DNA of 51,674 bases from Paludibacteraceae bacterium (GTDB taxonomy: Bacteria; Bacteroidota; Bacteroidia; Bacteroidales; Paludibacteraceae). This document shows, one piece after another, positions 33,176-36,538 of this stretch; the first letter of the stretch is position 1, and each line of letters opens with the position of its first letter. Below the pieces are notes generated by a model. It searched no databases and was not told where the DNA came from. It saw nothing but the letters and a program-made list of their open reading frames with translations. Position numbers and translations under genes: made by a program. The stretch spans positions 1 to 51,674 of the forward strand of contig JAKSKV010000023.1 of the NCBI GenBank assembly GCA_024401555.1. Direction: 5' to 3'.

Positions 33176-33214
33176 TTTGCATTGCCCGACAGGGCGTTTT
33201 CAAAACGCCCCTAC
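33061..33214 (+). repeat. 154-bp direct repeat, copy A (MATE 3' end plus palindromic element)
   Basis: 33061-33214 matches 34310-34463 at a constant offset of 1,249 bp with six mismatches and no gaps by my count. The first 49 bp are coding sequence of the MATE gene. The remaining 105 bp are a dispersed element bounded by GTAGGGGCGT and its inverse ACGCCCCTAC, with two inner palindromes centred on TATTGCATA and TTTTCAAAA. Confidence 0.92.
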
Positions 33215-33261: not shown

Positions 33262-34209
33262 TTATTCTTCGATTTCGTCAATGTTTAGTCCTGTCATGGC
33301 TGTGATTTCTTCCGTAGGGTATCCTTTTTGTTTCATCATACGAGCGATTGATAGGTTGGTTTCGAGGATACCTTTTTTTATACCTTCTTTTATACCTTCT
33401 TCCCGACCTTCTTTTAGGCCTTCTTTCAAACCTTGCGCTCTACCTTCTGCCAAACCACGTTTGATACCTTGCTCAAATCCATAACGCTCCACGGTGCCTC
33501 GATTGGAGAGGACCTTTAGTTCCGCCTCATATTGGGCATACTCCGCCTCGGAAAGGGCGGACACCTTCGCCTTCTCGATGAGTTTCAACAAAGCCTCGTC
33601 GGCTATTTCGTAGATTTCGGGATCCAAATTCTCCATATTGCCTAAGTTTTTAATCGTTTCCAACCAGATGTCCTTGGGTGTGAGGCCGCTTTTCTCGACG
33701 GCCAATTGGAAGTTGGGCAACGAAATGTAGTACTTGCGCATCCTGTCCCAGAACTCGGTCTGCTTGTCGATGTCGAACTCCGCGGTGCGGGTCACCACCT
33801 CTTCCAACTCCTCCATCGGAACACCCAAGATGAACACGCCGATCAATCGGGGAATGTCGCTCTCCCTTTCGCTCCAGGAGACACCCCGCTTGATGTGTTT
33901 GTCCATCAGGTTGTAAAGGTAATAATTTGCCCGTGTTTTGAAAAACGGATGGGTGTAATTCTGCATCTCCACAATCACATCGTCTCCGTTGTCCAGTCGG
34001 CAACGCAGGTCGAATGTGACGCCGCGTAGGTCGGGATGGTCACGGGTCTGCTCCACGGGAAGGAACTCCAGGTGCTCGATGGTGCCGTAATCCTCGCTGA
34101 GAATCGCGTTAAGGAAAGATTTCATACTGGCTTCTTCGCCCATACAATGTTTAAAACCGAAATCGGTTTTGAGGTCAATGTATACGCCTCTGTTTTGATT
34201 TTTTACCAT
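33262..34209 (-). CDS. Rpn family recombination-promoting nuclease / putative transposase
   Basis: A 315-residue PD-(D/E)XK protein of the TIGR01784 type, common in Bacteroidetes in many copies. DLKTDFGFKHCMGEEASMKSFLNAIL is the N-terminal family block. VTFDLRCRLDNGDDVIVEMQ (about residues 74-93) carries the catalytic Asp and E-x-Q. FKTRANYYLYNLMDKHIKRG follows. The C-terminal region has Glu-Gly-(R/I)-(K/E) tetrapeptides (KEGLKEGREEGIKEGI) and ends ITAMTGLNIDEIEE. It differs from the first Rpn protein in its core but shares the tail style. It sits alone inside a 1,095-bp segment between two 154-bp direct repeats. Confidence 0.9.
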   Translation of the reverse strand: MVKNQNRGVYIDLKTDFGFKHCMGEEASMKSFLNAILSEDYGTIEHLEFLPVEQTRDHPDLRGVTFDLRCRLDNGDDVIVEMQNYTHPFFKTRANYYLYNLMDKHIKRGVSWSERESDIPRLIGVFILGVPMEELEEVVTRTAEFDIDKQTEFWDRMRKYYISLPNFQLAVEKSGLTPKDIWLETIKNLGNMENLDPEIYEIADEALLKLIEKAKVSALSEAEYAQYEAELKVLSNRGTVERYGFEQGIKRGLAEGRAQGLKEGLKEGREEGIKEGIKKGILETNLSIARMMKQKGYPTEEITAMTGLNIDEIEE

Positions 34210-34241
34210 AGATTTAACAGGTGTTTTATTATAGTTGTGTG

Positions 34242-34249
34242 CAAAGATA
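34242..34249 (-). promoter_or_regulatory. -7 element of the second rpn gene
   Basis: TATCTTTG on the minus strand matches consensus and lies 32 bp before the ATG. No TTTG box is clear upstream. Confidence 0.55.
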
Positions 34250-34309
34250 ATACAATATTGTTTTGTTTGTGTAATAAATACAGTAAAATAAGGAACGATT
34301 GTGAATTTG

Positions 34310-34463
34310 TGTCTATTGGGTTATCCGTGGCTTGGTGCAAACGATGATGCGGAGAAGGGTAGGGGCGTATTGTATACGCCCCTGGTATGCAAAACGGACC
34401 GACGCCAATAATGTCTGTGGGTGATTTGCATTGCCCGACAGGGCGTTTTCAAAACGCCCCTAC
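34310..34463 (+). repeat. 154-bp direct repeat, copy B
   Basis: This second copy carries a non-coding remnant of the MATE 3' end (34310-34358) followed by the same 105-bp palindromic element as copy A. It lies in the 462-bp space between the rpn start and the lipoprotein gene. The rest of that space holds only the lipoprotein promoter and its leader. Confidence 0.92.
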
Positions 34464-34671: not shown

Positions 34672-35556
34672 ATGAAGAAAAGATTTTTATTTTTCGCATT
34701 GCCGTTGGTGGCAATGCTGTCGTTGGGCTCTTGCGGAGACGACGAGATTGAGAGGGAGGATAATACGCCAAATAAGGAGCAGACGGATCCGAACAAGCCA
34801 TCTGGCGATGATGAAGACGACTATGATGACGAGGACGATTACTCCCGCACTTGTGAGGAGAAGTGCACCACCTTTGGCGAGACCAACGGCGTGGAGTATG
34901 TCGATTTGGGTCTGCCAAGCGGTAACCTGTGGGCGACGATGAACATCGGAGCAGATAAGATAGAGGCCTACGGCGACTTGTATTCATGGGGAGAGACTTC
35001 TACCAAGAATAACTATTGTGAAGTTTGTTATTCCTTCTACAAGAAACTCTTCGAGGAGGTGGATGGGTTCACCAACTACATCCATGGTTATACCAAGTAT
35101 ATGCCTAAGGATAAGGCCAGCGAGTATGGCTATGGTGGATTCTTCGACAACAAGACCACTTTGGATTTGACCGACGACGTGGCTCATGTGAAGTTGGGTG
35201 GCTCGTGGCGTATGCCAACCGAGTGTGATTTCGATGAGTTGAAGGAGAACTGCGAGAAAGTGTGGTGTACCTACCAAGGTGTGAACGGCTATAAGTTCAC
35301 GGCGAAAAACGGCAAGTGGCTCTTTTTGCCTGCTGCCGGTTACGGCTACGGCAACCTCGACTACCCTCGCAGCTACGAGGGCGTTTTCGGCTGCTATTGG
35401 TCTAGTTCGCTCAATTCCGACCACCCGGGCTACGCTTACTACCTCCCCTTCTATTCGTTCTATTCGGGCGCCATCTACGTCTACTACGACGGCGACTACG
35501 ACTGCCGCTACTTCGGGTACTCTGTTCGTGCCGTTTGCCCATCCGCAAAGAAATAA
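34672..35556 (+). CDS. Surface lipoprotein with FISUMP / C-type-lectin-like domain, candidate DGR target
   Basis: A 294-residue lipoprotein. The lipobox LSLGSC puts lipidated Cys at residue 21, and GDDE right after it fits the Bacteroidetes surface-export signal. An acidic linker (about residues 30-60) leads to a domain that starts YVDLGLPSGNLWATMNIGA and continues WRMPTECDFDEL, LFLPAAGYG, YWSSSLNS and YSVRAVC. This order is the FISUMP / formylglycine-type C-type-lectin fold seen in many Bacteroides surface proteins, including targets of diversity-generating retroelements. Codons in the last 67 positions of the domain (35338-35538) are mostly NNC, unlike the T-ending codons before them. It has its own promoter and terminator. 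Confidence 0.88.
   Translation: MKKRFLFFALPLVAMLSLGSCGDDEIEREDNTPNKEQTDPNKPSGDDEDDYDDEDDYSRTCEEKCTTFGETNGVEYVDLGLPSGNLWATMNIGADKIEAYGDLYSWGETSTKNNYCEVCYSFYKKLFEEVDGFTNYIHGYTKYMPKDKASEYGYGGFFDNKTTLDLTDDVAHVKLGGSWRMPTECDFDELKENCEKVWCTYQGVNGYKFTAKNGKWLFLPAAGYGYGNLDYPRSYEGVFGCYWSSSLNSDHPGYAYYLPFYSFYSGAIYVYYDGDYDCRYFGYSVRAVCPSAKK
35338..35538 (+). other. Candidate DGR variable region
   Basis: Of 67 codons, 46 end in C, including 16 in a row at 35467-35514 that code for many different residues (G, A, I, Y, V, D, C, R, F). This is expected if AAC codons of a template repeat were changed at their A positions by an error-prone reverse transcriptase. The end, coding YSVRAVC, sits where the unmutated IMH would be in known targets. 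No reverse transcriptase or template repeat lies in this window, so the call is an inference. Confidence 0.5.
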
Positions 35557-35572
35557 CCATATCGCGTAGGAA

Positions 35573-35616
35573 AAAACAAGCGATGCGCAGCCGATGGGTT
35601 GCGCATTGTTTGTTTT
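35573..35616. terminator. Long hairpin after the lipoprotein gene
   Basis: Arms 35573-35592 and 35597-35616 pair over 20 bp, three of them G-U, around the loop GATG, with A residues on the left and T residues on the right. It is a likely terminator. Its GC-rich upper stem with a 4-nt loop just after the putative variable region also resembles the hairpins that follow DGR target regions. Confidence 0.75.
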
Positions 35617-35636
35617 GTAGAGACGGAGGGCATTTC

Positions 35637-35736
35637 CCCGACAGGGCGTTTTCAAAACGCCCCTACATTGCGTCGCACCTCGGTTTGTCGATAATGATGA
35701 ATGGCGTGGTGTATAGGCGTATTGCATACGTCTTGG
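35637..35736 (+). repeat. Dispersed palindromic element, rearranged copy C
   Basis: 35637-35666 equals the right end of copies A and B (CCCGACAGGGCGTTTTCAAA and onward to CCCCTAC). 35711-35736 resembles their left end (GGCGTATTGCATACG), but the two halves are in the opposite order. The 45 bp between them are not similar to A or B. Confidence 0.7.
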
Positions 35737-35776: not shown

Positions 35777-35811
35777 AAAAAAAATCACAACCATCAGGCT
35801 GTGATTTTTTT
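35777..35811. terminator. Bidirectional terminator before the nitroreductase gene
   Basis: AAAAATCACA pairs with TGTGATTTTT around AACCATCAGGC. It differs from the hairpin at 33221-33253 by one base in the loop and sits likewise between convergent genes. Confidence 0.85.
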
Positions 35812-35832
35812 GTTTTGGGATATGCACAATGC

Positions 35833-36483
35833 TTATTTCCAAACATTGTAATGCACATTCTCCGTATTCCACTTATCCTTTGGAGCTGGACTCTCAGCAG
35901 GATAACCCATTGGAATGACGCAAAGCACAATTTGTGAAGATGGCATGTTCAACATTCTACCCATCATCTTCGCCTTATCCAAGTTTGGATAGAAACCTGT
36001 CCAGACAGCGCCCAATCCTAAGGCGTGTGCAGCCAAAAGGATATTCTCGGTAGCGGCAGACGCGTCTTGTACCCAGAACTCGCGGATCTTCTCATCCTCG
36101 ATCGCTTTGGTCATATCACCGCAAACCACGATAGCCATTGGCGCTTTTGCCGCCATGTGCGCATTTTGTGCGGAGTCGGCGATTTGTTGAAGAAGTGCCT
36201 TGTCATTCACCACGGTGAAACTCCAAGGTTGTTTGTTGATAGCGGATGGAGCGGCCATGCCTGCGCGGAGAATCTTCTCGACCTTCCAATCCTCCACGGG
36301 AGTCTCTTGGTAATCCCGTACGCTGGTGCGGGTTTGGATGGCTTGGAGTACAACCTCCGCGCTGTCGATATTATTGCAAGCGGCGTTTTCTGTTTTACAA
36401 CAATTGCCGCAACAAGAAGAGAGTGCGAGTGCACCTGTCAGGAAAAAGTTGGTCATGGCGGCCCACAAAAATTTTTTATTCAT
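35833..36483 (-). CDS. Nitroreductase-family lipoprotein
   Basis: A 216-residue FMN-dependent nitroreductase-fold protein. Residues about 46-205 are the domain: IQTRTSVRDYQETPV, AGMAAPSAINKQPWSFTVV (FMN binding), then DASAATENILLAAHALGLGAVWTGFYP and VIPMGYPAESPAPKDKW. An N-terminal signal with lipobox ALSSC puts the lipidated Cys at residue 24, followed by CGNCC, so the enzyme is outside the cytoplasm. That is unusual for a family that needs NAD(P)H and FMN. The CCGNCC cluster could bind a metal or act in thiol redox. It is divergent from the next gene with overlapping promoters. Confidence 0.9.
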   Translation of the reverse strand: MNKKFLWAAMTNFFLTGALALSSCCGNCCKTENAACNNIDSAEVVLQAIQTRTSVRDYQETPVEDWKVEKILRAGMAAPSAINKQPWSFTVVNDKALLQQIADSAQNAHMAAKAPMAIVVCGDMTKAIEDEKIREFWVQDASAATENILLAAHALGLGAVWTGFYPNLDKAKMMGRMLNMPSSQIVLCVIPMGYPAESPAPKDKWNTENVHYNVWK

Positions 36484-36506
36484 AAGTTTTTGTTATTAAA
36501 TGTTCG

Positions 36507-36526
36507 CAAAAATAGTTATATATTTG
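36507..36526. promoter_or_regulatory. Divergent -7 elements
   Basis: TATTTTTG on the minus strand (36507-36514) serves the nitroreductase gene and TATATTTG on the plus strand (36519-36526) serves the TlpA-like gene. They are 4 bp apart, so the two promoters compete for the same 60-bp space. Confidence 0.6.
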
Positions 36527-36538
36527 TCTATTAAAATC

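Follow-up and report, generated by a model that had tools for sequence, protein, structure and literature searches.

A lipoprotein gene of a Paludibacteraceae bacterium with a probable orphan, fossil DGR variable region

The gene described here lies within a stretch of 51,674 nt from a Paludibacteraceae bacterium that was analysed as a whole and is referred to below as the window (features in Table 1). Its product, a lipoprotein, falls short of the curated cut-offs in its two Pfam matches, to Lcl_C (E 0.0029) and to Fib_succ_major (E 0.078). Single-sequence structure prediction of the C-terminal domain yielded a mean pLDDT of 39.8, and a sequence search of the PDB returned nothing better than a match with E>=0.36, to an unrelated regulator. 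The organism's own genome (G000; 159 contigs, scored 99.83% complete) holds 18 additional matches to the lipoprotein, and scans of genome and viral contig collections, at the protein level and by DNA pattern, recovered no relative. Six records of the Prevotella Lak megaphage (H1-H6) encode a relative with 29% identity over 74% of the lipoprotein. To judge from the family, the variable tail probably serves this surface lipoprotein as a ligand-binding face of the C-type-lectin kind.

Table 1. Features at the lipoprotein locus (window coordinates)
Feature	Position	Strand	Basis
Stretch of 1386 bp, with 17 bp in its place in sister genome G012 (empty site, contig C135)	34392..35777	.	
Left copy of a palindromic intergenic repeat with GGGCGTTTTCAAAACGCCCC core, 33 nt	34431..34463	.	
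Lipoprotein gene with C-terminal FISUMP/Lcl_C-like domain, 294 aa	34672..35556	+	ORF; weak Pfam matches
Lipobox cysteine codon (LGSC), putative end of signal peptide	34732..34734	+	Translation inspected by eye
Module of shared DNA, 74% to G012:C96 (L054) over 272 nt, extending beyond the stop codon; upstream part of gene diverged	35305..35576	+	
DGR-type variable region (VR) with NNC codons, probably orphan	35338..35538	+	Codon signature and comparison with relatives
Three codons not in L054 or L057 (placement per alignment)	35356..35364	+	Codon alignment
Exact tandem duplication of 9 nt (two copies of TTCTATTCG), in frame and private	35449..35466	+	Not seen in L054 or L057, nor in the relics on C149 and C13
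Four codons not in L054 or L057 (placement per alignment)	35485..35496	+	Codon alignment
Hairpin of 20 bp with 4-nt loop (arms 35573-35592 and 35597-35616)	35573..35616	+	Folding
Right direct copy of the GGGCGTTTTCAAAACGCCCC-core repeat, 33 nt, 97% identical	35634..35666	.	

The flanks of the 1386-bp insert are present in the sister genome, at 97% (34128-34391), 91% (35778-35823) and 86% (35827-36534), and palindromic repeats lie close to both ends of the insert. The lipoprotein gene is an accessory gene, absent from the sister at this site. In four other genomes of the genus the site is arranged differently, since the stretches fetched beyond the nitroreductase gene (1.8 to 4.0 kb) contain neither the lipoprotein gene nor its Rpn-type neighbour. 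The palindrome GGGCGTTTTCAAAACGCCC has three exact intergenic copies in the window, at 33192, 34441 and 35644, where chance would give zero. The hairpin that the earlier note had placed behind the gene is real (-36 kcal/mol, z -6.94). As a DGR signal it was rejected: behind the genes of the two sister-species relatives that were folded there are strong hairpins as well, unrelated in sequence, which makes a terminator the likelier function, and the structure probably is one.

The same note had drawn attention to the dominance of codons ending in C within the tail, and this observation was borne out by the statistics. Among the 67 codons of the VR 46 end in C, where its residues and the local codon usage would predict 22.8 (z 6.25); the observed count was reached in 0 of 20,000 simulations. 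The longest NNC run comprises 16 codons in the VR and 9 in the other ORFs of the window; of 11,645 overlapping 67-codon stretches of those other ORFs none reaches 46 (maximum 40). The codon-usage reference, 13,823 codons in all, came from a mechanical selection of 33 other ORFs of the window with at least 200 aa. In the 222 upstream codons of the gene itself, NNC is found 68 times against 60.8 expected, and codon use there is therefore ordinary, as had been claimed; the special preference for T-ending codons that had been claimed along with it did not hold.

A comparison of 15 FISUMP-type domains from the own genome (one spurious 24-codon row was left out) gave NNC z-values of 5.86 for the window gene, 5.28 for the domain on contig C126, 4.62 for C119, 4.15 for C3 and 3.63 for C116, and of -3.4 to 1.6 for the remaining ten. 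The genes on C126 and C116 are NNC-rich in their upstream codons too. Those on C3 (L076) and C119 (L075) are 88% identical upstream and have NNC-rich tails that differ from each other; these tails may be additional orphan VRs that belong to another lineage.

A 17-mer from the core of the module that contains the VR is present, with at most one mismatch, in 13 of the 150 genomes of the family. In the sister genome the module DNA is common to three genes, on contigs C96 (L054), C89 (L057) and C161 (L055), each of which has a different upstream part. We counted mismatches per codon position for all but L055. Between the window gene and L054 there are 26, 24 and 42 mismatches at positions 1, 2 and 3 of 60 upstream codons, as compared to 15, 18 and 10 in the 72 codons of the module, which amounts to a drop at the third position (p 3e-11) and a shift towards positions 1 and 2 (p 0.014): the latter differ 33 times within the module, despite a third-position divergence of only 10/72 (42/60 upstream). 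Between the window gene and L057 the counts are 15, 14 and 20 in 25 upstream codons and 19, 19 and 20 in the module, so that similarity rises over that upstream but no excess at positions 1 and 2 is seen. Between L054 and L057 there are 19, 14 and 17 mismatches at positions 1, 2 and 3.

Complete DGR cassettes exist for this kind of target in other genera (G067:C8, G217:C28 and G160:C39). Like the window gene, they have a FISUMP-type target with the YWSSS...SVR frame and NNC codons; unlike it, they are complete and hold the VR gene, a MutS_I-like accessory gene, an AAC-rich template and a DGR-type reverse transcriptase (RT) together. The accessory protein matches Pfam MutS_I at E 0.01, below the cut-off, and none of the NCBIfam models; MutS-like accessories reportedly belong to some DGRs. 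Over 168 nt the G067 template differs from its cis VR at 27/53 A and 0/115 non-A sites, and from three remote VRs at 28/53 and 3/115, 31/53 and 1/115, and 22/53 and 1/115 sites, respectively. A fourth remote VR (28/53 A, 22/115 non-A) has drifted, and L177 (G067 C17), which carries an insertion, was omitted from the comparison. In the case of G217 the template differs at 24/49 A and 1/119 non-A sites from the cis VR and at 20/49 and 3/119 from a remote one; in the case of G160 the cis VR differs at 25/60 A and 3/108 non-A sites. An inferred template was also used as a query against other genomes, with two candidates per genome scored, and in G146, G207 and G289 its match lies 240-300 nt away from an RVT_1 match, as judged from positions only.

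Set against the core of the window VR (54 nt, ungapped), the G067 template, which belongs to another genus, differs at 8/17 A and 5/37 non-A sites. The window VR is thus of the same kind as the retroelement-written tails. The authorship of a DGR, as proposed in the earlier note, is therefore well supported, namely by the NNC excess, by the drop in third-position mismatches with the sister gene and by the adenine-directed, same-module cassettes in three genomes. That change at the window VR was adenine-specific is suggested by these relatives rather than read directly, because the template of its exact lineage was seen nowhere.

With respect to the origin of the tail, one could argue that no DGR took part and that the NNC codons and the variability reflect a preference for certain codons, selection acting on a lectin-like face, and paralogous domains that recombine in the ordinary way. 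Most FISUMP domains of the own genome indeed vary at the same places without an NNC excess, so that variation alone needs no DGR, and recombination has clearly joined the module to upstream parts of different kinds. Such an origin nevertheless leaves unexplained why the third position remains a constant C amid varying first and second positions, and why the same module is paired with templates beside DGR RTs in other genera; we consider it improbable. If a DGR did write the tail, its machinery might still be at work in the own genome. The two RVT_1 matches of that genome sit on contigs C96 and C71, and the window itself thus has no RT, in agreement with what had been reported for it. The RT on C96 (L001, 1315-2649) is a UG27-type defence reverse transcriptase (PADLOC E 8.1e-168). 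The one on C71, found among phage-like genes, is DGR-like (34% identity to the DGR RT of G067, E 1.7e-48) and has a template that overlaps the 5' end of the RT frame and a VR that ends an ORF of 2082 aa (L002, L073). This VR differs from its template at 16/39 A and 0/66 non-A sites, and the element could be imagined to rewrite the window VR in trans; its template, however, mismatches the core of the window VR at 23/37 non-A and 12/17 A sites, which leaves no template relation between the two. We rejected C71 as a trans writer and give this scenario next to no credence.

A template for the window VR was not recovered either. The VR, used as a query against the whole own assembly, yielded no fitting template among the 15 candidates, all of which were scored; the sole other match was a 65-nt piece on C149, which was rejected as a template because it is a broken fragment of a VR and contains few AAC codons. 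The inferred template likewise returned the window (3.9e-36) and the C149 piece (3.2e-4), no template being found among the 29/29 scored candidates; the remaining matches, on C126, C71, C13, C68, C78 and C24, have E-values of 0.007 or weaker, and the weakest (C78 and C24) span 16 nt at E 0.6. A template that differs solely at adenines should have been detected at the settings used. The MutS_I-like accessory of G067 had no match in the own genome at E<=0.01. Of the two items for which a genome-wide search had been recommended, a DGR-type RT was thus found (C71), and a repeat that matches the VR outside adenines was not, in the whole assembly. The suggestion of the earlier note that a retroelement acts on the VR from elsewhere in the genome found no support: there is no fitting template, the DGR-type RT has an unrelated template of its own, and the VR carries a private duplication.

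Several further observations look like signs of decay. Retrohoming would be expected to erase the private duplication and the other in-frame insertions (Table 1). The even spread over codon positions in the comparisons with L057 falls short of a clean DGR signature; it looks like drift since the last rewriting, because most VRs barely differ at non-A sites where a live cassette is present. In an ungapped comparison of 18 modules 5 show <=10/130 non-A changes, where the high non-A counts of other-genus or indel-bearing modules were not taken as evidence. Two broken relics of the VR lineage are found in the own genome, on C149 and C13, and in the latter a VR piece is joined to the 3' end of the module and downstream bases. 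The sister genome (88% complete) has no RVT_1 match. On its contig C96 three 5' fragments of the accessory gene (~60 of 179 aa, each with TAG) lie around the VR gene, as one would expect of a DGR locus that has decayed. The region (G012:C96 1001-7400, L196) is a tandem array of lipoprotein genes, each of which is preceded by such a broken fragment.

The VR might nonetheless still be active in the living strain, with a template and an RT that fell into an assembly gap or that reside transiently on a mobile element. A template-RT locus in a gap is possible since the assembly consists of 159 contigs, remote VRs are real in G067, and G040 (genus g26, 95% complete) offers a case in point. Ten of the 12 DGR-type modules of that genome (L197-L208) are nearly uniform at third positions, the mismatches per pair of 56 codons ranging from 0 to 9 at the third, from 10 to 27 at the first and from 11 to 24 at the second position, and yet the genome contains no RVT_1 candidate; L203 and L207 deviate from these ten, and the module of L203 is interrupted by a stop codon. 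Fresh-looking VRs without a detected RT therefore do occur, although the missing RT of G040 is more simply explained by a gap in its assembly, as several modules lie <200 nt from contig ends. Against current activity of the window VR speak the completeness of the own genome, the lack of a template and of an accessory-gene match in it, the private 9-nt duplication and the third-position drift relative to L054 and L057, and we regard such activity as unlikely. Somewhat less likely still, in our view, is that the DGR-written tails of this family exist independently of the DGR, in that the sets of VRs in genomes without a detected RT (G040, G086, G058 and G012) are spread by recombination and rewritten episodically, whenever another genome or a mobile element brings in a DGR, the window gene being one such shared cassette.

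As a matching template was not found in the genome, the tail is most likely a leftover whose rewriting has ended, and we put the probability that this accessory gene carries a DGR variable region that is orphaned and fossil at roughly 0.68. The codon signature and the relatives suggest the following history. In an ancestor or donor an RT would have copied an AAC-codon-rich template, placing random bases opposite the adenines, and the cDNA would then have replaced the 3' end of the lipoprotein gene. The gene may have become accessory at a site between palindromic repeats, a step visible solely as the empty site of the sister. Because searches of the assembly recovered neither the matching template nor its RT, the VR would by now be a fixed and slowly drifting binding surface.

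In this way a codon signature noticed by eye has brought to light a VR without an RT, relics from the same lineage and, in a sister genome, DGR loci that seem to have decayed. Surveys of metagenomes that look for DGRs next to RTs miss remote targets (PMC8144416), and so miss targets such as the window VR. A comparison of orphan VRs with the living cassettes of the family would show for how long a retroelement-written binding surface is retained after the loss of its writer. A literature search found DGR and FISUMP co-mentioned in no paper, which speaks only to the co-occurrence of the two terms.

Three published systems come close to the window gene. In cyanobacterial DGRs, C-type-lectin paralogues distant from the RT carry VRs and the modules are grafted onto different N-termini (PMC7517822); the window gene resembles these remote variable proteins in both respects, but they have a matching template in the same genome and the window VR has none. 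Partial DGRs of the DUSEL4 Nanoarchaeota comprise, like the window gene, a target with a VR without a local RT, and show adenine-directed variation, for which the authors offer fossils or remote diversification as explanations (PMC4372165); they are unlike it in that they are archaeal, have targets unrelated to the window domain and share their genomes with complete DGRs. The leftovers in Treponema denticola resemble the window gene in being lipoprotein targets with a VR in isolates without RT or template, and were read as remnants of the loss of a core DGR (PMC4891356), whereby the VRs could be compared with a known template from other strains of the species, whereas for the window VR templates come from other genera only. 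Leftover VRs are thus already known, from T. denticola and the Nanoarchaeota, and the window VR adds another case.
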